Virus record (IMG/VR): IMGVR_UViG_3300038954_000699
Location: 1 to 23,921 of that record
DNA length: 23,921 nt
Direction: 5' to 3' (one strand)
From: a virus
Below, in pieces: positions 304 to 21,706 of this stretch (the first letter of the stretch is position 1; each line of letters opens with the position of its first letter). The translations under genes were made by a program, and so were the position numbers. The notes under the pieces were generated by a model. That model saw only the letters and a list, made by a program, of their open reading frames with translations. It searched no databases and was not told where the DNA came from.

Positions 304-3258
304 ATGGCAGAATCATTCAGGGAGTTCGTTGATAAGCTGAAGCGGGAAGTTGATTTGGTCGCTGAGATCAATAAGACGCCGGGGATGGCGATGCAAGACC
401 GGCGCCGTGGTAAGTATGTTTATGGGCAGAGTAAGGCTGCGGGCGGACCGGGTGATAGTTTGATGGTGGATGTGGGGCGGCAGACGTATACCTGGTGGCA
501 GAAAGGCGGGAATAGGGGCAGGAAGGGGGATGCTTACGGCGATGTGATCGATTGGCTGGAGACGTACCGCAAGATGGATTTCATGGATGCGGTTAAGTAT
601 TTGTGCCGTGAGTATAACGTGGCGCTGCCGCCCGATTTCGATCGTGAGCCAAGCCCGGAGATGGTGGCGTTTCGGCAGCGGATGGCGCTTTGGGATGTGG
701 TCGCTAAGTGGTTAGGTGAACGCTTGCTTTCTACTGCTGCGGCCATGGACTACGCCCGCGGCCGGGGGTGGACGGATGAGACGATCGAGAAGGCTCGGTT
801 AGGGTTTTCGCCAGGGGGCAGGGGGGAGCGGCTTGAGGAGATCAAGCGAGATTTGCGGGGCGATTTGCAGATGCATGAGTATGACCCCGAGTGTCCTGAA
901 GCGGTAGCGGTGCTGGGGCTTTCCGGGGGCAAGGAAAAGTTAAAGGCATGGGCAGCACGCTACGAGGTAGACATTGAGGCTCACCATAATTGGCTGGAAA
1001 AGGGCCGAATTTATGGGATGCTCGATTTTCCCAGGCTTGTCTATACGCATATACGGGGTGATAAGGTCGTTTATTTTAGCTGTAGGAACTTGCAATGGGA
1101 CAACAAGCGGCTGATGCCGGTATCCGGCAAGTATAAGACTTGGAATATGCCGCGGGTCTTGGTGGGGGAACGGAAGCATTATGCAAATTTTGAGTATTAT
1201 TCGAGCGCCGAGCGGGTGGTGGTGTGTGAAGGTCCGGCGGATGCGGTGACGTGGGCGCAGTGGGGGGTGGCGGCGTGGGCGCTGGCCGGGGTGGCGATGG
1301 ATGATGATTTGGCCGAGAAGCTGCGCAAGCATGATGTGCGCTTTTGGGGGCTGGATAACGGACCTGAAGGCCAGGAAGCGGTAGATGCGATGGGGCCACG
1401 GCTGGGAGCGGATAGCTGGGTGATCCATTTTCCGCTGGATGAAGATCAGGGGGAAGATGCGAATGATTATTTGCAAGCGATGATTGAGCGGGGGGTGAAA
1501 CGCACGGATGTGGCAATGCAACGGAAGAAGGCGGAAAGGCTGTTGAAACAGGCAGAGTTGTTTGCACTGCGGGCTGCTCGGAAGGCGGGTCAAACAACGG
1601 GACCTGATCGGGTGGAGGCTGTTGAGCAGGCTGGTGCGCTGATCAAGGCATTGCCTGAGGCGATTTTGAGCCAGTACCATAAGCCATTGCGCAAGGCGTT
1701 GGATTTTGGTGTGCGTGAGCTTGACCGGGTGCTGCGGAATGTGACCACGGACAACGGGAGCAAGAGCACAGAAGATAAGGTGGGGGTAGAGACGACGCTG
1801 GGGGGCAAGGTTTTCGATTGGGTGCTGGAGTATTGCTATGATCCGGAGACAGAAGAAGCGATTTTGGCATACCGCAACCCGAAGGGGGACGTGGGATTGG
1901 CACATGAAGTGGTGATTGAGGGGATCAAGTATATTCCGAAGCCGCCGAATAAGATGGTAAAGAGCGGCGGGGTGCTGTTCCCGAGCACGCTGGGGGAGAA
2001 ACGCAGCACGAGAGATCTGATTGAAGAGGTGGAATTATTTATCAATCGTTATTATTTGCTGGATGATGCTCATTTGGTGCGGATTATTGCCTATTATGTG
2101 CTGCTGACGTGGATTTATGACGCTTTTGAGGCGCTGCCTTATTTGCGGGCGCTGGGGGATTACGGCAGCGGCAAGAGTGAGCTGATGAAGCGGGTGGGGT
2201 ATATTTGCTACCGGCGGATTGCGGCGAGCGGGGCGAACACGAGCGCTACGTTTTTTCGGACGAAGGAGATGTATAACGGCACGGTTTATATCGACGAGGC
2301 TGATTTGCACGATGGGGGGGATATGAGCAATGATATTATCAAATTTTTGAATTTGGGGGCGATGAAGGGGACGCCGATTACCCGCATGGTGGAGACGGTG
2401 GATTATTACGGCAATAAGGTGCTGGAACCGACGCCTTTCGATACGTTTGGACCGAAACTGATTGCGATGCGGGAAGATTTTCGGGATAAGGCGGTTGGAA
2501 GCCGGTCTTTGACGATCAATGTGGTGGGCAAGGAGACGGAAGAGCTGATGGAGGCGGGGATCCCGCTGCATATCAATGATGTGTTTCGGCAGCATGCGCT
2601 GACGATGCGGAACCGACTGCTGCGCTGGCGCTTGGAGAACTTTGTTGACCAGATTGAGCTGACGGATGATTTGATGGATATGCACTTGAGCCCGAGGCTG
2701 AACCAGGTGACGATGGCGGTGAAGAGCTTGGCCAAGCTGGTGAATGATCACCAGTTGATGGATGAGATCACCACATTTTTGCGGGCGTATGCGCTGGAAG
2801 AGATTTACGAGCGGAGCCTGAGCGTTCCGGCGTATTTGGTCGAGGCGATTTGGGAGCTGTGGAAAACTGATAATGAGAATAAGAGAGAGAATTTGTACAT
2901 TCACAACTCTAGAGACGGACGGTTATATTTTTGGATGCACGATATTCGTGAGCGGGCGAACATGATTATGGACGCCTTGAACGAAGCGGGGTCGGTGCGC
3001 GATGATGATGTTTCGAAGTCTAAAAAGGAACTGACGCCGCAAGGAGTAGGGAATTACATACGAAACACGCTGCAACTGGAAGTGGGGGGGCGACAGGGCA
3101 GCGGGGTGCCGGTGTATTGGGACGAAGAGAAGATGGTGCGGCTGGGGAAGAAGTACGGGGTGCTGGAACAGAATTATGGTGAAGAGGGGGCAGAGGGGGC
3201 GGATGAGCCAGAGGAGCCAAAGGGTCCGACGGCTGAGCAATTGGATTTGGTTGGGTAG
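304..3258 (+). CDS. Phage DNA primase-helicase (TOPRIM + AAA+/SF3-like ATPase)
   Basis: The 984-residue protein probably primes and unwinds DNA for phage replication. Residues 1-110 align in pattern with the DnaG N-terminal region (YTWW..GG..GDVIDWLE), but the zinc-binding Cys/His residues are absent. A TOPRIM domain follows, with EGPAD at 309-313 and the acidic LDNG motif at 350-353, then EDANDYL. An ATPase domain carries a Walker A motif (GDYGSGKS, 618-625) and a Walker B motif (VYIDEAD, D664-E665). A C-terminal module at about 866-955 contains DIRERAN and GVPVYWD and is repeated in the next gene. Such fusions are known for phage and plasmid replication proteins. The exact helicase family is inferred from motifs only. 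The start at 304 follows an AAAAGGG site and gives the full N-terminal domain. Confidence 0.85.
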   Translation: MAESFREFVDKLKREVDLVAEINKTPGMAMQDRRRGKYVYGQSKAAGGPGDSLMVDVGRQTYTWWQKGGNRGRKGDAYGDVIDWLETYRKMDFMDAVKYLCREYNVALPPDFDREPSPEMVAFRQRMALWDVVAKWLGERLLSTAAAMDYARGRGWTDETIEKARLGFSPGGRGERLEEIKRDLRGDLQMHEYDPECPEAVAVLGLSGGKEKLKAWAARYEVDIEAHHNWLEKGRIYGMLDFPRLVYTHIRGDKVVYFSCRNLQWDNKRLMPVSGKYKTWNMPRVLVGERKHYANFEYYSSAERVVVCEGPADAVTWAQWGVAAWALAGVAMDDDLAEKLRKHDVRFWGLDNGPEGQEAVDAMGPRLGADSWVIHFPLDEDQGEDANDYLQAMIERGVKRTDVAMQRKKAERLLKQAELFALRAARKAGQTTGPDRVEAVEQAGALIKALPEAILSQYHKPLRKALDFGVRELDRVLRNVTTDNGSKSTEDKVGVETTLGGKVFDWVLEYCYDPETEEAILAYRNPKGDVGLAHEVVIEGIKYIPKPPNKMVKSGGVLFPSTLGEKRSTRDLIEEVELFINRYYLLDDAHLVRIIAYYVLLTWIYDAFEALPYLRALGDYGSGKSELMKRVGYICYRRIAASGANTSATFFRTKEMYNGTVYIDEADLHDGGDMSNDIIKFLNLGAMKGTPITRMVETVDYYGNKVLEPTPFDTFGPKLIAMREDFRDKAVGSRSLTINVVGKETEELMEAGIPLHINDVFRQHALTMRNRLLRWRLENFVDQIELTDDLMDMHLSPRLNQVTMAVKSLAKLVNDHQLMDEITTFLRAYALEEIYERSLSVPAYLVEAIWELWKTDNENKRENLYIHNSRDGRLYFWMHDIRERANMIMDALNEAGSVRDDDVSKSKKELTPQGVGNYIRNTLQLEVGGRQGSGVPVYWDEEKMVRLGKKYGVLEQNYGEEGAEGADEPEEPKGPTAEQLDLVG

Positions 3259-3727: not shown

Positions 3728-3741
3728 AAACTTACAATCAA

Positions 3742-3874: not shown

Positions 3875-4001
3875 CCAATCTAAGAAAATGGAAAATATCT
3901 CGAAAACTTGCAAAAACATGCTGATTATGGTGCTTATATGTATATATTTCTCTTTATATAAGCGAGAATGCGAAAAATTTGCAATGGGCGTATTTTGAAA
4001 G

Positions 4002-4700: not shown

Positions 4701-4710
4701 AGAGACCATG

Positions 4711-4765: not shown

Positions 4766-4778
4766 GCAAGGAGGCGTT

Positions 4779-5105
4779 ATGGGCATTACGGTAGGCGATT
4801 TGAGTGAGAATAAGTGGCTTGAGCGCCTGATGGGGAGGGCTGAGAAGCCTGACAAGCAGCTCAGGGAGGTGCGGGATTGGTATTTGGGCTTGCTGCCATC
4901 GGAGCGGTTGGCCGTCTTGAGGATGGCGCAGCGGTTTCGACATGCGTTTGCCAGGTTTGGGGCGCAGAGTGCGTTATTGCTGGTGTTCGATTTGTACCGG
5001 ATTTATGGTTGGAAGGCGGTGGAGAGTGATGATGGTCCGCCTGAGGAGATATTTAGAAGAGATCGGGAGAGATTCACCACAAAGGCACGAAGTACACAAA
5101 GTTAG
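4779..5105 (+). CDS. Hypothetical protein between ssb and parA
   Basis: The 108-residue product is not recognised. It is helical and basic-acidic in composition, with a LLPSERLAVLRMAQRFRHAF segment, and has no membrane span. The ATG at 4779 follows a strong AAGGAGG site at 4768-4774 supplied by the flank of a palindromic repeat. A start at 4722 in the same frame would lie inside that repeat and is rejected. The last ten residues (FTTKARSTQS) are encoded by a CACAAAGG-type dispersed repeat, which suggests the original C-terminus was replaced by repeat insertion. Confidence 0.65.
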   Translation: MGITVGDLSENKWLERLMGRAEKPDKQLREVRDWYLGLLPSERLAVLRMAQRFRHAFARFGAQSALLLVFDLYRIYGWKAVESDDGPPEEIFRRDRERFTTKARSTQS

Positions 5106-5124
5106 TTATGTAGAACACAAAGGA
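5075..5124 (+). repeat. CACAAAGG-type dispersed repeat, copy 1
   Basis: The units CACCACAAAGGCACGAAG, TACACAAAG and ACACAAAGGA form a degenerate array spanning the end of one gene and the ribosome-binding site of parA. Related copies occur at 18959, 20417 and 23611. Confidence 0.75.
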
Positions 5125-5131
5125 AGCGGAG

Positions 5132-5866
5132 ATGATTGTGACGATTGCTAATCAAAAAGGGGGGGTAGGGAAGACGACGACGGCGGTGACGCTGGCTCAT
5201 GGTTTGGCACTGCTGGGGGCTGAGGTGCTGGTGATCGATTTGGATCCGCAGGGTCAGGCGGCGGTTGCGCTGGGGTTGGATAGTGAGCCGGGGATTTTTG
5301 ACTGGCTGGTGAGTGAGCGACCGCTGATGGAGTGTGTACGAACGGCACGGAAGAATTTGCGGGTTGTGCCTGGGAATAAGAAGAGCAGTTTCGTGCAGTT
5401 CTTTCTAACGCAACAGCAGGAAGGGGTTGATTACCTGGCCAGGAAACTGAAGGCGTTTACCCGCCGGGGGCTGGATTATGTGGTTTTGGATACAAGCCCG
5501 AGCGTGGGGGGGTTGCAGGAACGGGCGCTGTATGCGTGTGATTTGGCGGTTGTTCCGACGAGTATGGATTTTTTGAGCGCTGACAGCGTGGGGAGTACGT
5601 TTGGGACGATGAATAAGCTGCGTGATCACGGTTGGGAGGGCGGGGCGGTGGTGCTGCCTACGTTTTTCGATGGGGTGACGAATGAGAGTAAGCAGATTTT
5701 GGCAGAGCTGAAGGCTGTTTACGGCGACCGGGTGCGGCAGGAAATTCACCAGGCGACGGTGCTGCGGGAGTGCTCGGCTGAGGGGGTTACGATTTGGGAG
5801 CGTGCTCCGCAGTCTCGCAGTGGGGTGGAGTATGGGGATTTGGTTCATTGGGTGAAGGAGCTGTGA
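5132..5866 (+). CDS. parA: ParA-family partition ATPase
   Basis: The 244-residue product is a ParA/Soj-type ATPase, which positions replicons on the nucleoid so that both daughter cells inherit them. The deviant Walker A motif KGGVGKTT spans 9-16 with the signature lysine K9 and K14. VIDLDPQG (34-41) forms the A' motif, and VVLDTSPS carries Walker B D120. It lacks an N-terminal DNA-binding extension, so it is of the short (type Ib or chromosomal-like) class. The ATG at 5132 lies after AAGGAAGCGGAG. It overlaps the next gene, which probably encodes its DNA-binding partner. In a phage this points to a plasmid-like prophage state. Confidence 0.92.
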   Translation: MIVTIANQKGGVGKTTTAVTLAHGLALLGAEVLVIDLDPQGQAAVALGLDSEPGIFDWLVSERPLMECVRTARKNLRVVPGNKKSSFVQFFLTQQQEGVDYLARKLKAFTRRGLDYVVLDTSPSVGGLQERALYACDLAVVPTSMDFLSADSVGSTFGTMNKLRDHGWEGGAVVLPTFFDGVTNESKQILAELKAVYGDRVRQEIHQATVLRECSAEGVTIWERAPQSRSGVEYGDLVHWVKEL

Positions 5867-8591: not shown

Positions 8592-8816
8592 ATGTGCTTG
8601 GATGATTTGGCGTTGGCGATGGAGGGGCGGCTGGTATGGCGGCTGAGAGATTTGGTTGCGGGGTGGCTGGCCAGCACAAGGTTGGGGTGCTATGTTGCTC
8701 ACGTGTGGGCGGGGGAGCAGGGGTATTTGTTTGTTCGTGAAGGTGAGATGGCGGATTACGATGATGAGGAAGGGCGATGCGGTGCATCGCCCCTACGTGG
8801 GGGGAATGATGTCTAG
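8592..8816 (+). CDS. Hypothetical protein upstream of the integrase
   Basis: The 74-residue product is not recognised. It begins at ATG 8592, 6 bases after AAAGGAG at 8579-8585; the same frame is open back to 8358 but that part overlaps the structured RNA. The protein is helical then charged (MEGRLVWRLRDLVAGWLAS, MADYDDEEG). Its last residues (RCGASPLRGGNDV) are encoded by a GGGCGATGC hairpin repeat. It overlaps the integrase start by 8 bases, so it may be translationally coupled to it. Confidence 0.55.
   Translation: MCLDDLALAMEGRLVWRLRDLVAGWLASTRLGCYVAHVWAGEQGYLFVREGEMADYDDEEGRCGASPLRGGNDV
8772..8792. repeat. GGGCGATGC hairpin repeat, copy 2
   Basis: Identical 9-base arms and GGT loop to the copy at 6387, followed again by CCTACG. 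It is translated as the C-terminus of the small gene and lies 17 bases upstream of the integrase start. Confidence 0.85.
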
Positions 8817-9759
8817 GTTTTTGAGGGAGTTTGCGGATGTGCTGGGGGAGCAGGGGCGCTCGGCCCGGACGGTGGATACGTACGTGGGCTGGGCGGAGCG
8901 GTTTATTCGGTTTCATGGGATACGGCATCCGCAGGAGATGGGGGCGGATGAGGTGCAGGATTTTGTTGATTATTTGGCTTTGGACCGGCAGGTGGCGGCT
9001 GGGACGCAAAATCAGGCTGTGAGTGCGCTGACGATTCTGTATGAGGATTTTATGGGGGTGGAGCTTGGTGATTTGGGGGATGTGCGGGCAAAGCGGCGGA
9101 AAGGGTTGCCTGCTACGGTGTCCAAGGCGGAGGCGATGGATGTGTTCGATAAGATGAGGGGCCAGTTCCGCTTGGGGGCGCAGTTGTGTTTTGGGGCCGG
9201 TTTGCGGTTGTGTGAGGTGGTGGGCCTGCGGGTGAGGGATGTGGATTTTGAAGCTATGAAGATTTGGGTGCGGGGTGCGACGTGCGACGTGCGTTGGACA
9301 GTGCTGCCTGAATCTTTGGTCGATGTGTTGCGGTTGCAGTTGGACCGTGCCAGGATGGTGTGGCGGGGGGATAAGTTGGATGGGCGTGGGGGGATGCCGC
9401 TGGATGGGGGCAGGCGGTTTGTTTGGGCGTGGTGGTGGTTGTTTCCGTCGTCGAGGTTGTCGGATGATCCGCAGGGGCGGAAGCGGCGCTGGCATGTGCA
9501 TGAGAGTACGTTTCAGAAGAAGATTCGCAGTGCGGCGCAGAGGGCACAGCTTCAGCGCCGGTGTACGGCAAGTATTTTGCGGAATTCGTTTGCGGTGGCG
9601 CTGTTTCGTCGGGGGGAGAATGCGAGGGTGATTCAGAAGTTGATGGGGCACGCGTCAATTCGTTCGACGCTGAGGTATAAGCGTTGTTTGGCGGGGCAGA
9701 ATGTTGTCTCGCCGTTGGATCGGTTGGAGATTCGCGAGAGTGAGTCTCGCGAGGGGTAG
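8809..9759 (+). CDS. intI: Integron integrase (IntI-type tyrosine recombinase), degenerate active site
   Basis: The 316-residue product has the length and domain order of integron integrases, which recombine folded attC sites with attI. The N-terminal SAM-like domain spans about 1-90. The IntI-specific insert is recognisable (WWWLFPSSRLSDDPQGRKRR, then HESTFQKKIR), and the C-terminus has the VVSPLDRL motif typical of the family. Catalytic residues: R133 (GLRLCE), R258, H281 (LMGH) and Y290 are present. The HxLRH box reads SILRN, losing the histidine at 255, and the lysine loop is replaced by GATCDVRW, encoded by a TGCGACG tandem duplication. Activity is therefore doubtful. ATG 8806 or 8809 both fit; the ribosome-binding site is weak. 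Confidence 0.9.
   Translation: MSRFLREFADVLGEQGRSARTVDTYVGWAERFIRFHGIRHPQEMGADEVQDFVDYLALDRQVAAGTQNQAVSALTILYEDFMGVELGDLGDVRAKRRKGLPATVSKAEAMDVFDKMRGQFRLGAQLCFGAGLRLCEVVGLRVRDVDFEAMKIWVRGATCDVRWTVLPESLVDVLRLQLDRARMVWRGDKLDGRGGMPLDGGRRFVWAWWWLFPSSRLSDDPQGRKRRWHVHESTFQKKIRSAAQRAQLQRRCTASILRNSFAVALFRRGENARVIQKLMGHASIRSTLRYKRCLAGQNVVSPLDRLEIRESESREG
9732..9752. repeat. Hairpin at 3' end of intI
   Basis: TCGCGAGA (9732-9739) pairs with TCTCGCGA (9745-9752) around GTGAG. It overlaps the last codons of intI, just before the cassette insertion point, and could belong to the attI site or be a relic of the GCGAGA...TCTCGC repeat. Confidence 0.6.
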
Positions 9760-9818
9760 TTAGGCGTTGCTCATAGACAGCCTGCGGCTGCCCGTCGCAA
9801 CGCCTAATGGTCGAAGTT
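9755..9818. other. attI-like junction and mirror-image cassette remnant
   Basis: The G-TTAGGC crossover lies at 9759-9765. The 16 bases at 9755-9770 are the exact reverse complement of the first part of attC1 (10046-10061). The 13 bases at 9806-9818 (AATGGTCGAAGTT) are the exact reverse complement of the attC1 3' end (10157-10169). Between them, TTAGGCGTTGC and its complement (9760-9770, 9797-9807) enclose a 26-base hairpin. This looks like a tiny inverted, gene-less cassette fused to the start of cassette 1. Confidence 0.6.
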
Positions 9819-9845
9819 GGCATTTAGGCTTTTGCTAAATACTAT
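9817..9845 (+). promoter_or_regulatory. Possible cassette promoter
   Basis: TTGGCA (9817-9822), a 17-base gap, then TACTAT (9840-9845) resemble a sigma-70 promoter, with the -35 element close to consensus and the -10 weaker. It would drive cassette 1 and perhaps those behind it. Confidence 0.4.
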
Positions 9846-9862
9846 TGCAAATGGAGTGGATT

Positions 9863-10084
9863 ATGGAAAAATGGATTATTGACAATAAGAATATATGGTG
9901 CGGATTTTCTGTCAAAAAGAATATATTTGGTTTGGGTGTGCAGTTGATGATCGACACGTCGAATTGGAAAGATGGCCTTGGTATTGATATAAAATTCGAT
10001 TGCCAATTAATCTTTTTCAATTTCTGGTTTTTTCTAGATATACCCGCAACGCCTAACTACCGTTCCACCTGCAAGCGAAAATAG
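9863..10084 (+). CDS. Cassette 1 hypothetical protein
   Basis: The 73-residue product is not recognised. It has aromatic and hydrophobic stretches (LIFFNFWFFLDI) and could be membrane-associated. ATG 9863 is chosen because GGAG lies 6 bases upstream; ATG 9851 is also possible. The last ~13 residues are encoded by the 5' part of attC1, so the natural protein ends within the recombination site, as often seen in cassettes. A+T-rich composition sets it apart from the phage genes. Confidence 0.6.
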   Translation: MEKWIIDNKNIWCGFSVKKNIFGLGVQLMIDTSNWKDGLGIDIKFDCQLIFFNFWFFLDIPATPNYRSTCKRK

Positions 10085-10173
10085 GCTACGCGGTAAATGA
10101 TTTATCGAGTATCGAAGTTTACCAAGTCAAATAATTTATTCGAGCCGTTGCAGGTGAACTTCGACCATTCGCG
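10051..10173 (+). other. attC site of cassette 1
   Basis: The inverse core GCCTAAC is at 10051-10057. The arms pair as GTT-CACCTGCAA-CG (10062-10077) with CG-TTGCAGGTG-AAC (10146-10159), leaving an unpaired C and G on the 5' arm. The crossover is before TT at 10168; the preceding base is A instead of the usual G. Its central region resembles that of attC3. Confidence 0.82.
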
Positions 10174-10208
10174 GGCTTGGCTTTTTAGAATAGCAAAGGA
10201 GTAATTTT

Positions 10209-10595
10209 ATGAAGGTGAAGGTAGGAGATAAAATTTATAGCGGGGAAGATCAGCCTGTCATGGTTATTTTGACGGAGCAGGATAAGTACAACATAGAAAA
10301 TATGTTGCCAGATTGCACCAAGTATGCCATGTATCCAGACGGAGAATTCAGCGCAGAAGAAATCCATGAGTGGATGGATTGGGGCGAAGAAGTTTCGCAA
10401 AAGTCGCCAAGCCCGCGAACTACGTTTCCACTTGACCAGCCTTCGGCTGTAGAGTCAGCGGCCGCGTTGCTCGAAGAAGCTTTGGAGAACTCAGAGAATG
10501 CCGCAACGCTAATTGCGTGGTTTGACGGCGAACGCCAGATAATAGAGCAAACCGTTCAAGAGCTAACTGCTTTACTAGAATCGGCTGGCAAGTGA
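10209..10595 (+). CDS. Cassette 2 hypothetical protein, reads through attC2
   Basis: The 128-residue product is of unknown function. The first ~65 residues (MKVKVGDKIYSGEDQPVMVI, TEQDKYNIENM, EFSAEEIHEWMDW) resemble a widespread uncharacterised small protein type; I recall such sequences but cannot name a family. AAAGGAG lies upstream of ATG 10209. The remaining residues, including a helical segment LLEEALENSENAATLIAWF, are encoded inside attC2: the stop codon lies within its 3' arm. Either attC2 has an unusually long coding loop, or the reading frame was extended by a fusion. Confidence 0.7.
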   Translation: MKVKVGDKIYSGEDQPVMVILTEQDKYNIENMLPDCTKYAMYPDGEFSAEEIHEWMDWGEEVSQKSPSPRTTFPLDQPSAVESAAALLEEALENSENAATLIAWFDGERQIIEQTVQELTALLESAGK

Positions 10596-10611
10596 AACAA
10601 GTTCGTTCGGC
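10414..10611 (+). other. attC site of cassette 2, long coding loop
   Basis: The 5' end GCCAAGCCCGCGAAC (10406-10420) is the complement of the cassette start at 10168. Arms pair as GTTT-CACTTG-CCAGCC (10424-10441) with GGCTGG-CAAGTG-AAAC (10583-10598), with unpaired C and A on the 5' arm. The loop of about 141 bases is coding. The crossover is G-TT at 10605-10607. RRR consensus is not met (GTTCGGC). Confidence 0.78.
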
Positions 10612-10664
10612 GGCACTCGCAGACCCAAAAAGCGGGCCGCTCCCGCCGCCGAATGGACGCCGTT
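10605..10664. other. Mirror-image cassette remnant at start of cassette 3
   Basis: TTCGGCGGC (10606-10614) is complementary to 10645-10653. The following 13 bases, AATGGACGCCGTT (10652-10664), are the exact reverse complement of the attC3 3' end (11095-11107). This is the same arrangement as at the head of cassette 1. The enclosed 30 bases include a GC-rich stem (GCGGGCCGCTCCCGC). Confidence 0.6.
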
Positions 10665-10727
10665 ATGAGATAGTTCTGGCGGCTATAAACGTAAAGCAAA
10701 AGCCCGCCCTATTTTGAAAAGGAAAGA

Positions 10728-10943
10728 ATGATGACAGAAAAAAGACCGTTTGTAGTAACAGGCGAACCAGATTTGGGCGTGATCGAATATTATGTTGTAT
10801 TCGCACGTGGAAAGGGAGAGGCCGAACACCTGCTAAAGAAGGCCAACTCCAATTTGATTTATGTGTCCGCGTGTCCTGCCAGAAGTCTAACAAACGATGT
10901 CATCAATGTTGCTTTCGTTAGAAGGGGCGGGCAAATAGAGTAG
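10728..10943 (+). CDS. Cassette 3 hypothetical protein
   Basis: The 71-residue product (70 if ATG 10731 is used) is not recognised. It has an alternating strand-helix pattern (IEYYVVFARGKGEAEHLLKK, then VINVAFVRRGG) and no membrane span. AAAAGGA precedes the start. The stop lies about 45 bases before attC3. Base composition matches the other cassettes. Confidence 0.6.
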   Translation: MMTEKRPFVVTGEPDLGVIEYYVVFARGKGEAEHLLKKANSNLIYVSACPARSLTNDVINVAFVRRGGQIE

Positions 10944-10988
10944 CCAAGCACACAGCAGTAATCGAGATTATCTTTGCAAGATCGTGCC

Positions 10989-11111
10989 GCCGAACTACTC
11001 ATTCCACCGCTCGGCGAAAATAGGTAGCAAGTCAAATGATTGTATCAATGGATAAATTAGCGAAGTCAAATCAATTATTCATACGCCGACGGTGAACGGC
11101 GTCCATTAGGT
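10989..11111 (+). other. attC site of cassette 3
   Basis: GTGCCGCCGAAC (10984-10995) is the exact complement of the cassette start at 10605-10616. Arms TT-CACCG-TCGGCG (11002-11016) and CGCCGA-CGGTG-AA (11084-11096) pair with one unpaired C and another unpaired base on the 5' arm. The crossover is A-TT at 11105-11107. Confidence 0.8.
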
Positions 11112-11135
11112 TGCACAAAAGAAAGGAATATTGAC

Positions 11136-11423
11136 ATGTCGAAATATAGAAAAATAATTGAACAGGCAATAGAAAAACATAAAGGCGAAATGCCCGCTAT
11201 CGGCTCAGTAGTCGCGCATGAGTCCGACCCAATCTCTTATGAGTTGTTGCGTTACGAAAATAATGCCGCAGTAGTCGGGTTGGATGGCGAAGAGAAAATC
11301 TTTCCATCTGAAGAAATTTTCGATGTCAACGCAGTAAAGCGCACGGCATTGAATATAAAATTCCAAAATCAGTTCAAAGCATGTGTATCAGCCGCAAAAG
11401 CGGGCATTGTGCAACCTAACTAA
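11136..11423 (+). CDS. Cassette 4 hypothetical protein
   Basis: The 95-residue product is not recognised. It is soluble, with a helical start (KYRKIIEQAIEKHKGE) and a beta-rich middle (ISYELLRYENNAAVVGLDGE) that could be a small SH3-like barrel; that is speculative. AAAGGAA precedes the ATG. The stop codon is formed directly behind the inverse core of attC4, so the last residues (IVQPN) come from the recombination site. Confidence 0.65.
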   Translation: MSKYRKIIEQAIEKHKGEMPAIGSVVAHESDPISYELLRYENNAAVVGLDGEEKIFPSEEIFDVNAVKRTALNIKFQNQFKACVSAAKAGIVQPN

Positions 11424-11567
11424 CGCATCAAGCGGAATTGTGGTAAGCGGGGCCGAGCCGACGGTAACGAACGGCAAGCGTCTCAGTGCTAGGTCGGACG
11501 CCAGGAGTATCACGCACCCGTTGGCCCCGCTTGGACACCACAATCAGCTTATGCTTCTACGTTAGAC
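11414..11567 (+). other. attC site of cassette 4 (canonical cores)
   Basis: The inverse core ACCTAAC (11414-11420) and the core GTTAGAC (11561-11567) both match RYYYAAC and GTTRRRY. The folded arms contain GCAT-AAGC-G-ATTGTGGT paired with ACCACAAT-C-GCTT-ATGC, with unpaired C, G and A on the 5' side, and an apical AAGCGGGGCC stem with its exact complement. Confidence 0.88.
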
Positions 11568-11574
11568 CCCAAAC

Positions 11575-11601
11575 AAAAAAGCCCCGGTGTTTAGCCGGGG
11601 C
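11575..11601 (-). terminator. Terminator of the reversed cassette-5 gene
   Basis: On the minus strand a 7-base stem GCCCCGG/CCGGGGC (11581-11601) with a 7-base loop is followed by six T residues. It lies 20 bases beyond the stop of the gene at 11622. Confidence 0.85.
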
Positions 11602-11621
11602 GGGAGCGATACGAATTGTGG

Positions 11622-12011
11622 TTATTTATCTTCTTTCCAGTCTTGCCACTGCTTTCTTATTACATCCATCATTCGAGCTCTGGCTTCTTCGGCGTCATCA
11701 ATTATGCCTTGCTCTTCTAGCGCAAATAGGTCTTGTTCGACGACATCCTCCGCTAGACTCTCGTCAAAATTTTGCCAAGCATCCGGCGCCGCATCGAAGC
11801 TTGCATAAAAGTCCAACATGTCATCAAAGTTTACTCTGTCAGCTTGGCTGCTTCTTAGGTTATATTTTGCGTTCATCTCAATCTCCTTTTCGTATAAGTC
11901 TTTTATTGCTATTGTGTAAATTTTGGTCAATGATCCGTATCGCTCTCGTTTTAGCCAGTTCAGCCGTTGTTTTGTTGCATCATCAAATCGTATCGTCGTT
12001 TTGCTGCTCAT
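11622..12011 (-). CDS. Ribbon-helix-helix regulator or antitoxin-like protein (reversed cassette 5)
   Basis: The 129-residue product starts with a clear ribbon-helix-helix domain (TTIRFDDATKQRLNWLKRER, then YTIAIKDLYEKEIE), the DNA-binding fold of many antitoxins and repressors. The remaining part is acidic and helical (DESLAEDVVEQDLFALEEQG) without a known toxin motif. An in-frame ATG at 11876 is preceded by AAAAGGAGATTGAG, almost identical to the site before the true start, so a separate 84-residue protein may also be made, or two genes have fused. It has its own promoter, palindromic operator and terminator, and lies opposite to the array direction. Confidence 0.8.
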   Translation of the reverse strand: MSSKTTIRFDDATKQRLNWLKRERYGSLTKIYTIAIKDLYEKEIEMNAKYNLRSSQADRVNFDDMLDFYASFDAAPDAWQNFDESLAEDVVEQDLFALEEQGIIDDAEEARARMMDVIRKQWQDWKEDK

Positions 12012-12063
12012 CTCAATCTCCTGTTCTATCGGCGTTTATGTTTATCTTTATCCAACTATCTAT

Positions 12064-12092
12064 ATTATGGCATAATGCCATACATTTGTCAA
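12064..12092 (-). promoter_or_regulatory. Promoter with palindromic operator for the RHH gene
   Basis: On the minus strand, TTGACA (12092-12087), a 17-base spacer and CATAAT (12069-12064) form a near-consensus sigma-70 promoter. The 17-base palindrome TATGGCATAATGCCATA (12066-12082) lies between and over these boxes, well placed for autorepression by the ribbon-helix-helix protein. Confidence 0.8.
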
Positions 12093-12149
12093 GACCTATA
12101 TCGTTACATCTTCGTTGCAATTCTCGCAATGTTCGGCGTACCGTTTGGT

Positions 12150-12279
12150 GTCTAACTACAGCATCAACGCAGACCAGGGCTACCGCCCTGGAGGGTCAGC
12201 GGCCTGAGCAGAAAAGTTTATTCGATGGCGAGGGCGCTTAGTCAAACCCGCCCTGGCTGGTTATGCAAATTCGTTGGGC
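12150..12279 (+). other. attC site of cassette 5 (canonical cores)
   Basis: The inverse core GTCTAAC (12150-12156) and the core GTTGGGC (12273-12279) match consensus. The extended 5' end GTTTGGTGTCTAA matches the complement of the cassette start at 11562 with one mismatch. Arms GCAT-AAC-CAG-CCAGGGC and GCCCTGG-CTG-GTT-ATGC pair perfectly, leaving single unpaired C, G and A bases on the 5' arm, as in attC4. Confidence 0.87.
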
Positions 12280-12300
12280 TTATTTTGAAGGGAGATACGC

Positions 12301-12960
12301 ATGGGAATGAATGTTTCGAAGGGGAATATGTATGCGTTTGTAACGCATACGTTCAATACGGTCAAAGGGGTTTGCCCGCATGATTGTTCGTACTGTTATA
12401 TGAAGCGATGGGGGAATCTCAAGAAGGTGCGGTTGGATGAGCGTGAGTTCGGAACGGATTTGGGGGCGGGGAATTTCGTTTTTGTGGGGTCGAGCTGCGA
12501 TATGTTTGCGGATGCTATTCCGACGGGGTGGATCGAGAGGACGATGGCGTATCTGAAGACGTTCGATAACCGGTATTTGTTTCAGAGCAAGAACCCGGTG
12601 CGGATGTTGGGTTGGGTTGATCCGGACGAACTTGATGCTGTTGTTTGCACAACGATTGAAACAAACCGTTGGTATCCAGATATTATGAAAAACTCTCCCA
12701 CGCCAGACTTACGAGCTGATGCGATGTCCATGCTGCCGCTTGAGCGGTATGTGACGATCGAGCCGATTATGCGGTTTGATTTGGATGAGTTGGTGGATAT
12801 GATTCGACATAGCGGGGCGGTTTCGGTGAATATTGGTGCTGACAGCGGCGGGAATGGGCTGCCTGAGCCGAGTGCTGATGAGGTCTTGGCGTTGATTGAG
12901 CGCCTGGAGCGGTTTGTGGTTGTGCGGCGGAAACCCAATTTGCAGCGGTTGTTGGTTTAG
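12301..12960 (+). CDS. DUF5131-type (phage Gp37/Gp68-like) radical-SAM-like protein
   Basis: The 219-residue product matches the pattern of the phage Gp37/Gp68 family (DUF5131): a conserved start with THTFN, then C25-x3-C29-x2-C32 (CPHDCSYCY) as in radical-SAM iron-sulfur proteins, and later VFVGSSCDMF and VTIEPIM segments. No activity has been established for this family as far as I know; a radical SAM reaction is inferred from the three-cysteine motif. GGGAG precedes ATG 12301. It starts 22 bases after the last attC core, but no matching attC lies downstream, so it is probably a phage gene and not a sixth cassette. Confidence 0.85.
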   Translation: MGMNVSKGNMYAFVTHTFNTVKGVCPHDCSYCYMKRWGNLKKVRLDEREFGTDLGAGNFVFVGSSCDMFADAIPTGWIERTMAYLKTFDNRYLFQSKNPVRMLGWVDPDELDAVVCTTIETNRWYPDIMKNSPTPDLRADAMSMLPLERYVTIEPIMRFDLDELVDMIRHSGAVSVNIGADSGGNGLPEPSADEVLALIERLERFVVVRRKPNLQRLLV

Positions 12961-15061: not shown

Positions 15062-15122
15062 TGGGGATATAAAAGATGGAATGGCTGGCGGGGCAGAGGG
15101 TAGCAGGGTTGGGTTGCCTTGC

Positions 15123-15173
15123 ATGGAAATTGGTGTCTGGCAGAGCACGTTAGCTTGCGCCAGCCACTTCCAT
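15123..15173 (+). repeat. Hairpin before the small terminase gene
   Basis: ATGGAA, TGG and CTGGC (15123-15141) pair with GCCAG, CCA and TTCCAT (15159-15173) with small bulges. It lies in the 135-base gap after the phosphoesterase and may be a regulatory or packaging-site structure; the role is unknown. Confidence 0.5.
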
Positions 15174-15196
15174 CGAAATTGGGGATAAAGGTATTT

Positions 15197-15832
15197 ATGA
15201 AGAAGTTTGATTGGGATTTTATTGAGCAGCTTTCGCTGGGGTTGGATGTTGAGGAGGTGGAGACGGAGGACTCGGCGCTTTCTCGGGAGGAGGTGCTGAG
15301 GCGGAGTGAGCAGGCTCGGCGGGCGCTGGAGCATGGCGAGCATTGGGGCGAGGATGCGCCTAAGTGGATGCGGCATTATCTCAAGCTGGGGGAGATGGGG
15401 TATCCATGGCGGGTGGCTGTTTATATTGCTTGGGCAGCTTCTCCGAGACAGGAACGATGGCCAGAAACGAAAGAGGACTTGGCGACGCAGGTTTTGGGTT
15501 TGAAGAGCGCCCGGCAGATTTATAAGTGGCGAAAGAAGTATGAGGGGATCGATCAGGCGATCACGATGATGCAGGCAGCTCCGCTGTTGGAGCACCGAGC
15601 GGATATTTATGAGGCATTGGTGAAAGTGGCTTCGGACCCGGATTATAAGGCCAACCCCGACCGGAAGCTGGCTCTGGAGATGCTGGGGGATTACACGCCG
15701 CGGGCCAAGATTGGACGTGACTTTGAAACGATGTCGGATGATTTGAGCGAGTTGAGCGAGCGTGAGCTGGATACGCTGAGCAAGGCGCTGGGGATTGAGA
15801 TGGTTGATTTGCTCGAGGATGGTGAGGCGTGA
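15197..15832 (+). CDS. Terminase small subunit-like protein
   Basis: The 211-residue product directly precedes the large terminase and overlaps it by 4 bases. The region about 70-125 (WRVAVYIAWAASPRQ, TKEDLATQVLGLKSARQIYK, WRKKY) has the pattern of the phBC6A51-type helix-turn-helix found in small terminases, which bind the packaging site and start DNA loading. The ATG at 15197 follows AAAGG by 5 bases. The identification depends on this pattern and on gene order. Confidence 0.7.
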   Translation: MKKFDWDFIEQLSLGLDVEEVETEDSALSREEVLRRSEQARRALEHGEHWGEDAPKWMRHYLKLGEMGYPWRVAVYIAWAASPRQERWPETKEDLATQVLGLKSARQIYKWRKKYEGIDQAITMMQAAPLLEHRADIYEALVKVASDPDYKANPDRKLALEMLGDYTPRAKIGRDFETMSDDLSELSERELDTLSKALGIEMVDLLEDGEA

Positions 15833-17376
15833 CGGTTGCCGTTGCTCAGGGAAACAAGCAAGGTATGGCTTTGGCTGCTGACCGGGTGCTGCGGGAGCGG
15901 GCAAGGCGTTATTTGATTGATTTTGCTACGTATGTAGCGCCCTGGTATGAGCCTGCTCCGCACCATGTTTTGTTGGCGAAGTATCTGGAAAAGGTGGAGA
16001 CGTATATTCGAACGGGGGGCAAAGAGGGGATTGGGCGTTTGTTGATTTTTATGCCGCCACGCCACGGCAAAACGGAGATGGTGAGCCGGTTATTCCCTGC
16101 TTGGTTGTTGGGGCGTTTGCCTGACAGCCGGGTGATGTTGACGAGTTACGGCGCTGATTTGGCGAATAAGAACAGCAAGGCAGTGCGAGATTATATTTTG
16201 GGTCAACGGTATCAGGCTGTTTTTGGGGTGAATTCTTCGGTGGATGTGCCGGTGATGATGAGCGATGACAGCCGAAGCGTGCAGAGCTGGGAGCTTGCTT
16301 CTCCACATCGGGGCGGGTCGGTGGCTGCCGGTGTTGGCGGTGCTTTGGTTGGGATGGGTGCTCATCTGTTGGTTCCGGATGACTTGTTCAAAAACCGCAA
16401 GGAGGCGGAAAACCAGGGACACAGAGATGTGGTGTGGGAGTGGTGGCGGAGTGCGGCGTATACCCGCCTGGAAAAAGGCGGCGCTGTTGTGGGAATGATG
16501 ACACGGTGGCACCCGGATGATTGGGCTGGCAGGCTGTTGAAGGCGATGGCAAATGACCCGCTGGCGGATGAGTATGTGGTGTTGAGTTTGCCTGCACTGG
16601 CAGAAACGCCCGATAAGGAGGATGAGCGCAGCCGGGTTGAGTTTTTACAAGACGGGATTTGGCCGCCTGAGCGGGATCCACTGGGGAGGGAGGCAGGTGA
16701 TCCGCTGTGGGGGGACAAGTATGACCGTGATGCGCTGGATCAGTTTCGGGCGAATGTGGGGTTGTATGAATGGGCTGCTCAGTATCAGCAGAGGCCGTAT
16801 TTGCGTTCGGGTGAGTTTTTCAAGCGGGAATGGTTCCAGGTAGTGGATTCCGGCCCGAAGCCTGATGATGTAAGAGCAAGGGTGCGTTATTGGGATAAGG
16901 CGGCATCGGGTGGGGGCGACTATTCGGTGGGCGTTTTGATGTCGGTGACGAGGGACGGATTTTATTACGTGGAGCATGTGGCACGGGGTCGATGGACGCC
17001 GGGGAAGCGTGACGCTGTGATGGTTGAGACGGCGTTGATGGATAAGCGGCGAGATGGTCCAAGGATGACGACGTGGCATCAACAGGATCCGGGCAGTGCG
17101 GGGAAGGACAGCGCCGAGGCGACGAATCGGAAGTTGGCTGAGGCGGGTGTGCGGGCTCGGTTTGAGCCGGTAACTGGGAATAAGGAAGTGCGGGCGGATC
17201 CGTGGAGCAGTATGTGCCAGGCGGGGAAGGTTCGTTTGGTTCGCTCGGGATGGAACAGTGAGTTCGTTGAGGAGCATGTGGCTTTTCCGAAAGGGAATTA
17301 TGACGACCAGGTGGATGCGGCCAGCAGTGCTTTTAGCGAGTTGGCGAAGCCGGTACGGGAATCGAAGATTTTATGA
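15829..17376 (+). CDS. terL: Terminase large subunit
   Basis: The 515-residue product is the packaging motor: an ATPase joined to a nuclease. The Walker A motif reads PPRHGKTE (76-83, K81), and the Walker B motif LLVPDDL has D184-D185. The RNase H-like nuclease has D356 (RYWDKAA) and the C-terminal DDQVD with D492, D493 and D496. This fits the terminase_6C/psiM2-like type. The start is GTG 15829, overlapping the small subunit stop (GTGA); ATG 15862 is an alternative, but the conserved part begins later. The end overlaps the portal start by 4 bases. Confidence 0.93.
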   Translation: MTVAVAQGNKQGMALAADRVLRERARRYLIDFATYVAPWYEPAPHHVLLAKYLEKVETYIRTGGKEGIGRLLIFMPPRHGKTEMVSRLFPAWLLGRLPDSRVMLTSYGADLANKNSKAVRDYILGQRYQAVFGVNSSVDVPVMMSDDSRSVQSWELASPHRGGSVAAGVGGALVGMGAHLLVPDDLFKNRKEAENQGHRDVVWEWWRSAAYTRLEKGGAVVGMMTRWHPDDWAGRLLKAMANDPLADEYVVLSLPALAETPDKEDERSRVEFLQDGIWPPERDPLGREAGDPLWGDKYDRDALDQFRANVGLYEWAAQYQQRPYLRSGEFFKREWFQVVDSGPKPDDVRARVRYWDKAASGGGDYSVGVLMSVTRDGFYYVEHVARGRWTPGKRDAVMVETALMDKRRDGPRMTTWHQQDPGSAGKDSAEATNRKLAEAGVRARFEPVTGNKEVRADPWSSMCQAGKVRLVRSGWNSEFVEEHVAFPKGNYDDQVDAASSAFSELAKPVRESKIL

Positions 17377-19583
17377 ATATTTTGCAGCGAGTGGGCAGTT
17401 TGTTGGGCAAGCAGCCGAGTAAGCGGGATATGGTTTTGCGTCCAGCGTGGCAGCGGCATTTTTGGGCTCCGTATGATGAGTTTGAGGATGTGGTTGAGTA
17501 TGGGTACAAGAAGAATGCCACGGTGTTTGCATGCATGACGGTTTTGAGCTGGGCGTTTCCGGAGCCGGAGTTGTGGCCGTGGGAGCGGGGGGATCGGAAT
17601 GAGTATCGAATTTTGCAGGGACATCCGCTGCGGGCGTTGATGCGCCAGCCGAATTTGGATATGGGCGAGGTTGAGCTGTTTCAGTTTGCGATTACGTACG
17701 CCCCCCTGGGGGGGAATGCCTATTTTTGGAAGCAGCGGGATCAGGCTGAGCGGGTGAAGGCGCTGTGGCCGCTGCACGACGGCCAGATTACGCCGGTTCC
17801 GGGGATGACGACGAGTGAGGGTTTTACGGCGTATTATGTTTTGGATGTGCCTGGAGACAATGAGCAGTACAACCCGTTTGGTTTGGATCGGCATGATGAT
17901 ATGCCCGGGGTGGCTATTCCGAAGAGTGAGATGATCCATTGGAAGTGGATGATCGACCCGAGCCATCCGCACCGGGGGATGGGGGCGTTGGAGGCGAGCG
18001 CCGGGGATGTGGCGGTTGGGAATGAGATTCGGGATTATATTTACAGTTTCTTGAAGAACGATGCGACTCCGCCGATTGTGGTGACGCTGGTGGAGGGGGA
18101 TGAGCTGACGGAGGATAAGGCGGAGCGGCTGCGGGAGCAGTGGGTGCAAAGCGGCGGGGGCGATAAACGGGGGATGCCACGGTTTTTGGAGGCGGGGATG
18201 GGGGTGGAGCAGTTGATGTTCAGCCTGCGGGAGATGGAGTTCGGCGAGCTGCGGGATGGTCCGGACAGCTCTATTTGTATGGGGTTTCATATCCATCCGA
18301 GTGTGGTGGGGACGCTGGCGGGGTTGAGCAGTAGCACGTTTAGCAGCGATTACAGTGAGGCGAATAAGGCGCTGGCTGAGCAGACGTTGATTCCGCTGTG
18401 GCGGAGTTTGGCGAGTGAGTTCGAGCAGAGCCTGACGGGCGAGATTGGGTACGGTGATGACCTGGTGGTGCGGTTCGATTTGAGCCAGGTGCGGGCGCTG
18501 CAAGAGAGCGAGAAGGATATTGAGGAACGGTTGGGGAGTGCGTTCGACCGGGGCGGGATCACCCGGGCTGAGTACCGGCGGGGGATGGGGTATGACGCTG
18601 ATGAGGCGGATGAGGTTTATAAGGAAAATTTGGCCAGTATTTGGGTGCCGCGTGGGAAGCTAAGGGAGTATGATCCGGAGCTTTTGGGGGCGGAGGAGGA
18701 GAGGCAGGGGGGAGAAGAGGGGTCAGAGGAACCAGAAGAACCAGAGGAGGGCGCCAGATCTCTTGATCTGGCGTGGCGAGACGGCGTAAAGGATGACGCC
18801 TTCTCGCGCAAGGCGGCAGCACGGATGTTTTCTGAAGGCGTGGGGGTGAGTTTGCGGCGGGCTCGGCGGCGGTTGGAGTCGAGGATGGCGGAGGAGGTGG
18901 AGGCGTATTTTGGGCGGTTGGCGAATTCTGTTGTGTCAAGGGTTCGGAAGGGCAATTTACCACAAAGGCACAAGGGACACAAAGTGAGAGCAGATGATTT
19001 GATTACGGCGGGGGATGGGGAGGTGCTTGAGGCGCTGGTGAAGCGGTTTTATGTGGCGATTGCGGAGGCGAGTTGGGATACGATTAACCTTTCGCTGGGG
19101 GTGGAGGTTGCTTTTGATGCGGCCAACCCGGCGGTGACGAAGGTTTTGGGGGTGGCGGGCGACCGGGTGAAGGATATTTTGGATACGGCCAAGGATGCGC
19201 TGCGGGATACGCTGCAATACGGGCAGGAGAACGGTTGGGACGTGGATATGCTGGTTGCAGGGGATCCTGAGGCGGGTGTGCCCGGTATTCGGGATGTGGT
19301 GGCGGAGACGTATAAGAATCGACACAGAACGATTGCAAGGACCGAGTTAGGACTGGCACAGAATGCGGTGGCGGTGAATCGCTATGATGAGGCGGGGGTG
19401 CAGCAGGTTTTGGTTCTGGATGATGGGTTCGATAACAGCGACGAGAATTGTGTGTGGATCAGCGGGAAGGTGAGGCCGCTGGCGTGGACGAAGTCGGATC
19501 ACCCCGGGGAGGGGCCGAGCGGGATCAAGAATCCGCTTCAGCATCCGAATTGTGTGAGGGCGTTTGCGCCTTATTTTGAGTAG
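17373..19583 (+). CDS. Portal protein fused to SPP1 Gp7/Mu F-like head morphogenesis domain
   Basis: The 736-residue protein combines two head proteins. Residues about 25-430 are an HK97-type portal (LRALMRQPN, GNAYFW, MIHWKW, SSSTFSSDYSEANKA). About 590-736 resemble the SPP1 Gp7/Mu gp30 domain (TIARTELGLAQN, then the typical ending HPNCVRAFAPYFE). The linker is acidic and low in complexity (EEGSEEPEEPEE). It contains a translated two-hairpin repeat (residues 460-480, SLDLAWRDG) and a CACAAAGG repeat (about 530-537, PQRHKGHK). The portal forms the DNA gate of the capsid. Start overlaps terL (ATGA). Confidence 0.9.
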   Translation: MNILQRVGSLLGKQPSKRDMVLRPAWQRHFWAPYDEFEDVVEYGYKKNATVFACMTVLSWAFPEPELWPWERGDRNEYRILQGHPLRALMRQPNLDMGEVELFQFAITYAPLGGNAYFWKQRDQAERVKALWPLHDGQITPVPGMTTSEGFTAYYVLDVPGDNEQYNPFGLDRHDDMPGVAIPKSEMIHWKWMIDPSHPHRGMGALEASAGDVAVGNEIRDYIYSFLKNDATPPIVVTLVEGDELTEDKAERLREQWVQSGGGDKRGMPRFLEAGMGVEQLMFSLREMEFGELRDGPDSSICMGFHIHPSVVGTLAGLSSSTFSSDYSEANKALAEQTLIPLWRSLASEFEQSLTGEIGYGDDLVVRFDLSQVRALQESEKDIEERLGSAFDRGGITRAEYRRGMGYDADEADEVYKENLASIWVPRGKLREYDPELLGAEEERQGGEEGSEEPEEPEEGARSLDLAWRDGVKDDAFSRKAAARMFSEGVGVSLRRARRRLESRMAEEVEAYFGRLANSVVSRVRKGNLPQRHKGHKVRADDLITAGDGEVLEALVKRFYVAIAEASWDTINLSLGVEVAFDAANPAVTKVLGVAGDRVKDILDTAKDALRDTLQYGQENGWDVDMLVAGDPEAGVPGIRDVVAETYKNRHRTIARTELGLAQNAVAVNRYDEAGVQQVLVLDDGFDNSDENCVWISGKVRPLAWTKSDHPGEGPSGIKNPLQHPNCVRAFAPYFE
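18752..18807 (+). repeat. Two-hairpin palindromic repeat, copy 6 (in portal gene)
   Basis: Hairpin 1: CGCCAGATC (18752-18760) with its complement at 18765-18773 around TCTT. Hairpin 2: GCGAGA and GGCGT (18776-18787) with ACGCC and TCTCGC (18796-18807). It is read in the same frame as the copies at 7076 and 7519 (SLD-AWR-peptide). Confidence 0.88.
18959..18984 (+). repeat. CACAAAGG-type repeat, copy 2 (in portal gene)
   Basis: ACCACAAAGGCACAAGGG followed by ACACAAAG is translated as PQRHKGHK in the linker of the portal fusion. The motif matches copies at 5075, 20417 and 23611. Confidence 0.8.
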
Positions 19584-20476: not shown

Positions 20477-21706
20477 ATGAAGACTGTAAAAGAGTATCAA
20501 ATTGAGATTGACGGCAAGCGGGATGAGTTGGCCCGTTTGTTTGACGACCACAAGGTGATGGACGGCGATGAGGCCAAGTACGATATGTCGCCTGAGCAAG
20601 TCGCCAGGGTGAATGAGCTGAATGACGAGATCGGTGAGCTGGTCGAGAAGCGTGACGAAGCCAAGAACCTGGACACGATTTTCCAGGACAACCAGAAGCA
20701 GATCAAGGAAGCGCAGCGAGCGAAGATGGATTTGCCGCTTGGCGGCGAAAAGGGTGTTGAGCCTGGACGCAAAGAAGCAAAAAGCCTGGGCGAGATGTTT
20801 ACCGAGAGCCGGGCTTACAAGGAGCGCCAAAACGGGCGTGACATTATCGCTTCTTTCGAGGATTTCCAGTTCAAGACGCTGATGACGACGAGTGCCGGTT
20901 TTGCGCCGGAAAGCACTCGCACGGGCAAGTTGGTGCCTTATGCGCACCGCCGCCCGATGGTTTTCCAACTGATGCCGAACACGCAAACGAACCAGGCTGC
21001 TGTTGTGTACATGGAAGAGACCACGTTCACGAACAACGCCGATACGGTCGCCGAGGGTGGCGAGTATCCCGAGGCTGCGCTGGCATACACGGAACGCAGC
21101 GAGACGATTCGCAAGATTGCGCAGTATTTGCCGGTGACGGATGAGCAGCTTGAGGATGTTCCGAGCATGCGTTCGCTGATCGATAACCGCCTTTTGACGA
21201 TGCTTGACCTGGAGCGTGAGGATCAAATTTTGACGGGCAGTGGCAGTTCGCCCGATTTGACCGGTTTCCACAACAAGAGCGGCGTGCAATCGCAGGCTTT
21301 GGGCAGCGACCCGATTCCCGATGCGATTTACAAGGCGATGACCAAGGTACGCTGGACGGGTTATGCCGAGCCTTCGGCTGTGGTTTTCCACCCGAATGAC
21401 TGGCAAACGGTGCGCTTACTGCGGACGACGGACGATGTCTACATTTGGGGCAACCCGAGTGAGGCCGGTCCTGAGCGGATTTGGGGCCTTCCGGTTGTGA
21501 TCACGAATGCGGAAACGGAAAACACTGCACTTTTGGGCGATTTCACGCTCTACAGTGAGCTGTTCCGCAAACGGGGCGCTGACATCAAGATCAGCGACAG
21601 CCACAGCGACTTCTTCATCAAGGGGAAGCAGGCTGTTCGCATCGATGAGCGGGTTGCTCTGGTGATTTACCGAGCTTCGGCGTTCTGCAAGGTGACTGGA
21701 ATTTAA
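20477..21706 (+). CDS. HK97-fold major capsid protein
   Basis: The 409-residue product is the major shell protein. Residues 1-105 form a charged, helical delta domain (KRDELARLFDDHK, RVNELNDEIGELVEK) that normally acts as scaffold and is cut off by the protease. The HK97-fold domain starts near 115 and includes LMTTSAGFAPE, LEREDQILTG and VVFHPNDWQ segments; it ends near the C-terminus with the FFIKGKQAVRIDERVALV strand. Codon choice shifts to C-ending codons compared with the G/T-rich neighbours, fitting high expression. The gene follows the protease in the usual order, with an AGAGAGGG site before ATG 20477. Confidence 0.95.
   Translation: MKTVKEYQIEIDGKRDELARLFDDHKVMDGDEAKYDMSPEQVARVNELNDEIGELVEKRDEAKNLDTIFQDNQKQIKEAQRAKMDLPLGGEKGVEPGRKEAKSLGEMFTESRAYKERQNGRDIIASFEDFQFKTLMTTSAGFAPESTRTGKLVPYAHRRPMVFQLMPNTQTNQAAVVYMEETTFTNNADTVAEGGEYPEAALAYTERSETIRKIAQYLPVTDEQLEDVPSMRSLIDNRLLTMLDLEREDQILTGSGSSPDLTGFHNKSGVQSQALGSDPIPDAIYKAMTKVRWTGYAEPSAVVFHPNDWQTVRLLRTTDDVYIWGNPSEAGPERIWGLPVVITNAETENTALLGDFTLYSELFRKRGADIKISDSHSDFFIKGKQAVRIDERVALVIYRASAFCKVTGI

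Follow-up and report, generated by a model that had tools for sequence, protein, structure and literature searches.

Integrons are gene-capture systems of bacteria that spread antibiotic-resistance genes. The window analysed here, which is the whole of the linear metagenomic IMG/VR record IMGVR_UViG_3300038954_000699 (23,921 bases), carries an integron inside a phage genome. From the left, it encodes a primase-helicase, a single-strand binding protein, a ParA-like ATPase and small phage proteins, which are followed by an integron integrase (IntI) and five gene cassettes. To the right of the array lie the genes for a DUF5131 / radical-SAM-like protein, a holin, a phosphoesterase/exonuclease, the small and large terminase subunits (TerS and TerL), the portal protein, the prohead protease and the major capsid protein. 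All of these genes are on the plus strand, with the sole exception of the gene in cassette E. The clustering of terminase, portal, protease and HK97-type capsid genes, assigned by Pfam above cutoffs, is that of a tailed phage (Caudoviricetes). The original prediction, made from the sequence alone, had placed the array between phage replication genes and phage lysis, packaging and head genes; the finding of TerL, portal, prohead protease, major capsid and holin genes confirms this setting.

Integrase and cassette array

The IntI gene occupies positions 8809..9759 on the plus strand and encodes a protein of 316 residues, which matches the family TIGR02249 over the full profile (1-315 of 315, E 8.6e-73) with a score of 245 bits, under the curated cutoff of 265. 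The best match in the PDB is VchIntIA (2a3v), both by sequence (phmmer E 4.7e-44) and by fold (Foldseek with an AlphaFold model of mean pLDDT 85.7, E 4.5e-22). The predicted IntI-like recombinase is borne out by these matches, and the protein is a tyrosine recombinase of the IntI type in which the IntI-specific insert is present, being 7 residues shorter.

Of the catalytic set R-K-H-R-H-Y, the Arg I, Arg II, His III and Tyr remain, and the Lys and His II are lost. Each of the two lost residues is present in 139 of 140 aligned IntIs, the window IntI being the lone exception. The loop GKGxKDR, which holds the conserved Lys, reads GATCDVR, and the His II motif HTLRH is changed to SILRN. In the RRHH motif, one His is replaced by Trp, and that His is missing in just one other of the 140. 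The heptamer TGCGACG occurs twice in tandem at 9276-9289, exactly at the position of the Lys loop. We read the window IntI as a protein that is either maintained or has decayed only recently, and that probably cannot recombine. Self-driven cassette movement is doubtful in the window phage, because two catalytic residues, Lys and His II, are missing from its IntI; the earlier idea that this virus could collect and exchange cassettes is weakened to the same extent.

In-frame stop codons are present in other phage IntI genes, those of L195 (G007; 2912-3907), L029 and L241, as in GWF*VFP of G007. Integrase decay may be common in such phages, or the stop codon may be read differently.

The five cassettes follow the IntI gene in the same direction. 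Their junctions were set by the complementarity of each cassette start to its own attC, which is exact over 16 bases in A, 14 in B, 12 in C and 13 in D, and covers 8 bases plus an indel in E, where it was read by eye. Positions 9740-12320 hold 6 inverted repeats that are 12 nt or longer and have their copies 200-650 nt apart. Shuffling the sequence 2000 times gave 0.06 on average and never more than 2, and 7 other stretches of 2.6 kb used as a control had none; 2 of the 6 are inner repeats of cassettes A and C. The single unpaired C that is typical of attC is present in the sequence of all five L'' arms. Both the cassette-specific complementarity and the unpaired bases had been predicted, and both are found.

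A putative attI adjoins the integrase gene (9755..9765, plus strand), with the crossover at G9759/T9760, overlapping the intI stop codon. It was placed there from a 16-nt perfect complement of the end of cassette A. In the other phage arrays the attI likewise lies directly past the intI stop.

The attC sites were searched with a covariance model of 20 sites from other phages, none from the window, and with a gapped-stem scanner. Known arrays of class 1, Vibrio and Shewanella integrons served to check this scanner, which replaced a strict exact-pairing one that missed most known sites. In an unfiltered covariance run on 9000-12500, the match at 12150-12279 ranks first (E 7e-9) and that at 11414-11567 second (E 3e-4); the former was also matched in a default-filter search over 18 sources (E 6e-7). 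With the scanner, sites D and E have perfect R boxes and reach scores (19.8 and 20.8) on a par with those of class 1 sites. Paired R and L boxes with the unpaired base in L'' are therefore recognised in D and E by both methods, and in A-C they are in place and individually weak. All five attC positions that had been predicted carry a covariance match, significant for D and E and weak for A, B and C. Sites A-C represent a different subtype (L'' TTCCAC), and in two of them, A and C, the crossover is A|TT instead of G|TT. The R' box had been taken as G|TT, which is revised here for the A/B and C/D junctions.

Cassette A (9760..10167) has an open reading frame (ORF) at 9863-10084, and its attC (10051..10173) has the R' box ATTCGCG, not GTT, with L'' GTTCCACCTGCAA and L' TTGCAGGTGAAC paired around one unpaired C. 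Cassette B (10168..10605; ORF 10209-10595) has a long attC of about 200 nt (10414..10611; L'' GTTTCCACTTG, L' CAAGTGAAAC). In cassette C (10606..11105; ORF 10728-10943) the attC (10989..11111) has R' ATTAGGT and a scanner score of 16.1. Cassette D (11106..11561; ORF 11136-11423) has a canonical attC (11414..11567; R'' ACCTAAC, R' GTTAGAC), as does cassette E (11562..12273), whose attC (12150..12279; R'' GTCTAAC, R' GTTGGGC) is the last site, with a phage gene next at 12301. Cassettes and attC sites are all on the plus strand. The gene of cassette E (11622..12011) is on the minus strand, which corrects the strand given earlier, and encodes a ribbon-helix-helix-like N-terminus, as seen by eye. 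Comparison of the cassette proteins with Pfam, NCBIfam and PADLOC gave no family; the first ~57 residues of the cassette B product belong to a phage protein family (57-63 residues) found in ten other viral contigs of IMG/VR.

Other details of the array were observed. The minus-strand frame of cassette E has two near-identical ribosome-binding/start regions (11873-11891 and 12008-12026), as if two genes had been fused, and within the cassette C ORF there is an R''/R'-like pair, GTCTAACAAA...CGTTAGAA, only 39 nt long (10885-10923). The phage attC model also matches 7 of 79 genomes of Planctomycetota, the phylum of the L008 genome (G142, G145, G175, G182, G192, G195 and G196), mostly at short sites of ~60 nt.

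The first gene past the array is that of the DUF5131 / radical-SAM-like protein (12301..12960), and the portal (17373..19583) and major capsid (20477..21706) genes follow further right, both with Pfam matches above cutoff. An Rfam gathering scan of the window gave no RNA family, and a DNA-level search for the array in phage records gave no match. Repeats of GCGATGCGGTGCATCGCCCC are present at 6389, 8774 and 13629, where none is expected by chance, and a further copy with 3 mismatches lies at 13626 on the minus strand. We take such repeats to be of a type present in Chloroflexota genomes, a possible hint to the host and the sole basis for naming it.

The same locus in other phages

Compared by tblastn with GenBank phages, the window IntI matched the phages reported by Qi et al. 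2023, considered below, plus Virus Rctr41k. In IMG/VR, profile scans brought up two sets of candidate stretches with IntI relatives, 433 and 162 in number. Where arrays are seen in IMG/VR, they are mostly upstream of intI, as in ordinary integrons, and in a minority downstream and in the same direction. This second arrangement, the reverse integron of the Treponema type, with intI and cassettes co-directional, is found in the window, in Rctr41k and in the reverse phage loci, and the covariance-model matches in the reverse phage arrays fall on the IntI strand.

The left edge of the locus is marked by g7891, a small zinc-ribbon-like phage protein (7891..8205, plus strand), whether the integron is present or not; its family profile was too diverse for an IMG/VR scan, and a single member was used as query. 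Further left lies the primase-helicase gene with a Toprim domain (304..3258), and the right flank comprises the genes for TerS (15119..15832) and TerL (15829..17376), 47% and 38% identical to their Rctr41k homologues. The order primase - g7891 - IntI - attC array - TerS - TerL(-portal) is present on one contig in L028, L046, L229 and L232. The gene order matches in L049, L057 and L063, where one end of the contig falls inside or beside the array and terS/terL lie at the opposite end; in all seven a primase-helicase homologue lies upstream of IntI. Rctr41k (GenBank KX853513, from an anammox/DAMO enrichment) has g7891 followed by an intact IntI (4680-5678), a co-directional array of six attC sites, and then TerS and TerL. 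One locus is therefore shared by nine phages, which are the window phage, Rctr41k and at least seven from IMG/VR. About 12 relatives have g7891 and terminases but no IntI between them, with other genes there (e.g. L006). The integron is thus a recurrent but non-universal resident of one accessory locus.

Nearly no cassette is common to the related-phage arrays compared, so that the locus recurs with different cassettes, as the proposed check on related phages had anticipated. The IntIs of Rctr41k and L028 are 72% identical, and one ATPase cassette is common to both (55% identical), in first position in Rctr41k and third in L028, with different neighbours. This cassette (L023, 5748-6446; L195, ~4905-5537) resembles part of the phages' own primase-helicase. 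As for recognised cargo, four arrays encode DNA methyltransferases of the C5, D12 and N6/N4 types, and a fifth (phage contig L207, G018; ~4356-4922) encodes a DpdA-like DNA modification protein. Such genes would fit an escape from host restriction, a role suggested for phage cassettes by Qi et al. 2023 (PMC9892861). The differences among the arrays of related phages may be taken as an indirect sign of cassette mobility.

The IntI tree was built from 48 sequences, a set to which the genomes of the likely host group and the Treponema reverse integrons are external. Two clades, each with support of 100/99, hold 17 of the 22 reverse-array IntIs. One comprises Rctr41k, L028, L029 and L241; the other comprises fifteen rows around L057, with thirteen reverse arrays, one unassigned and one (L091) called canonical, a call resting on weak upstream matches, with the downstream side cut by the contig end. 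Both consist mostly of reverse-array phage sequences and may also have bacterial members.

The L029 (G008) contig of IMG/VR has 67.7 kb and two portal genes 39.7 kb apart. Its reading as a concatemer was rejected, since the two genes are just 85.6% identical, and it perhaps represents two related prophages in tandem. Six other IMG/VR contigs (L036, L054, L032, L072, L089 and L067) include a canonical-orientation integron, or IntI, plus terminase or portal genes; these may be prophages adjoining an integron or real phage integrons.

Cassettes A and C of the window present another feature near their starts, an inverted, shortened (loop-less) copy of their own attC on the minus strand. In A it lies at 9797..9829, with a 13-nt exact inner repeat (9806-9818/10157-10169), and was recognised in the fold of the circular form; in C it lies at 10645..10683, with a 13-nt inner repeat (10652-10664/11095-11107), and was recognised by the fold and by an automated count. 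The same layout, namely the R' core, 26-38 nt and the inverted own attC minus its variable loop, is present in L081/L204 (G060), L227, L232 and L071 (G050). In the modelled fold of the circular cassette, the inverted copy and the attC right arm would form a near-perfect stem of ~20-30 bp. By the automated count, 5 of the 71 sites from reverse arrays have such a copy and none of the 219 from canonical arrays does, with 17 cases among 6000 mismatched pairs; the copies of window A and G050 came from a separate analysis outside this count, and some of the cassettes with a copy are homologous, so the independent events are fewer than counted. The idea that A and C begin with two tiny additional cassettes was dropped, since the inverted copy fits the sequence better in the fold. 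A narrow literature search found no published description of an inverted copy of a cassette's own attC.

Comparison with known integrons

The window IntI resembles class 1 IntI1 and Vibrio IntIA in its full-length homology with the IntI-specific region, and the arrays resemble each other in attC architecture; unlike them, it lacks the Lys and His II, and its array is downstream of intI, not divergent. The reverse integrons of Treponema denticola (PMC7691350, PMC3607928) are like that of the window in their co-directional intI and cassettes and in the attI downstream of intI, but they are chromosomal, and the likeness is one of arrangement. Rctr41k has intI in the same orientation between g7891 and terS/terL; its IntI is intact and its cassettes and head genes are others; its GenBank annotation gives only an 'integrase-like protein'.

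A phage carrying its own integron had been supposed to be undescribed, which does not hold. Integrons in phages were reported by Qi et al. 2023 (PMC9892861), for the most part as fragments derived from integrons of the host: 3 of them are complete, one is an In0 and 17 are CALINs, with attC activity shown. The phages include Vibrio anguillarum p16 and p42, P1 L-II, Shewanella M16-3, TJE1, P12002L and PH101. As in the present phages, intI and attC arrays are found there, with DNA methyltransferases among the cassettes. However, the complete cases are parts of host integrons or of mobile ones, each in a single phage; for none of them is a fixed locus in a lineage of phages described, and Rctr41k is absent from the main text. 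Our search, with subscription journals and preprints outside its coverage, found no description of a phage lineage with its own integron. To our knowledge, the fixed-locus, reverse-orientation integron of a phage lineage is new, together with its members, Rctr41k included. Of the original prediction, then, the integron and its place inside a phage genome stand, the claim of novelty for phages at large falls, and cassette exchange by the window phage itself is in doubt.

Origin and present state of the integron

We consider it likely that the window holds a reverse-orientation integron at a fixed accessory locus of a tailed-phage lineage, whose array is now a remnant with a broken IntI. The locus would follow the plan primase - g7891 - intI - attI - cassettes - lysis/terminase genes. 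By analogy with known integrons, IntI would recombine the folded single-stranded attC (bottom strand) of circular cassettes into the attI at the 3' end of intI, where new cassettes could be read by phage transcription through intI. Related phages would in this way acquire and shed small genes, frequently those of DNA modification enzymes, which may help against host restriction; activity, expression and benefit are what we infer. Since the window IntI has lost the Lys, the His II and a portion of the IntI-specific helix region, its array is most likely a remnant, or else a store, that only an IntI supplied in trans could now move, and the window phage probably no longer moves cassettes by itself.

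Several points weigh against this interpretation. The window IntI, on the longest branch of the tree (1.95-2.22), is not placed inside either phage IntI clade, and because the tree leaves it unplaced, shared descent of its integron with the others rests on the locus and the gene order. The IMG/VR contigs are linear fragments without completeness estimates. By model score, attC sites A-C are weak (10424-10600, E 0.02; 10989-11111, E 0.07; 10051-10165, E 0.7). Finally, the intI frame is open and its codon-position GC resembles that of other genes, from which the protein may still serve some function.

For a chimeric window, in which a phage contig was joined to a chromosomal integron of a bacterium, it could be argued that this is a single linear metagenomic record and that the cassette GC of 40-47.5% is below the 54-55% of the phage flanks. 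Low GC, however, is a common trait of cassettes, and g7891 upstream and terS/terL downstream recur on the same strand in Rctr41k and in IMG/VR contigs of several metagenomes. A chimera is very unlikely because separate assemblies share both junctions, and this refutation of the original prediction is excluded for practical purposes. The integron could instead be a one-off capture of a host chromosomal piece, as in the Vibrio phages, a mechanism documented in the text of Qi et al. 2023 (PMC9892861); the position of the window IntI outside the phage clades would agree with this. The occurrence of the same locus in at least eight further phages, the shared reverse orientation and the grouping of most reverse viral IntIs in two clades make such a capture improbable.

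It has also to be considered whether the window IntI is active with altered catalysis or specificity, matched to the A|TT crossover of sites A and C. Its coding-like composition and open frame, the confidently predicted fold, the four catalytic residues kept and the two attC sites with unusual R' would suit an active enzyme. We regard this as unlikely, given the near-universal Lys and His II, the shortened helix region and the canonical sites D and E. These two sites speak in favour of an array that is a cassette store moved only in trans by the IntI of the host or of a co-infecting phage, as does the use of phage-borne attC by bacterial IntI1 in the laboratory, as given in the text of Qi et al. 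2023 (PMC9892861). We hold this account as a tentative possibility, compatible with the remnant integron of a phage lineage and not exclusive of it.

For a wider proposal, that a tailed-phage lineage trades anti-restriction and other small genes through its own reverse integron, and that the inverted shortened attC may alter cassette movement or reading, we see the chances as evenly balanced. The integron would then be a standing module of a phage lineage, in contrast to the rare captured pieces reported so far. If this is true, viruses would swap counter-defence genes by means of a recombinase, and phages would be both a reservoir and a carrier of cassettes.

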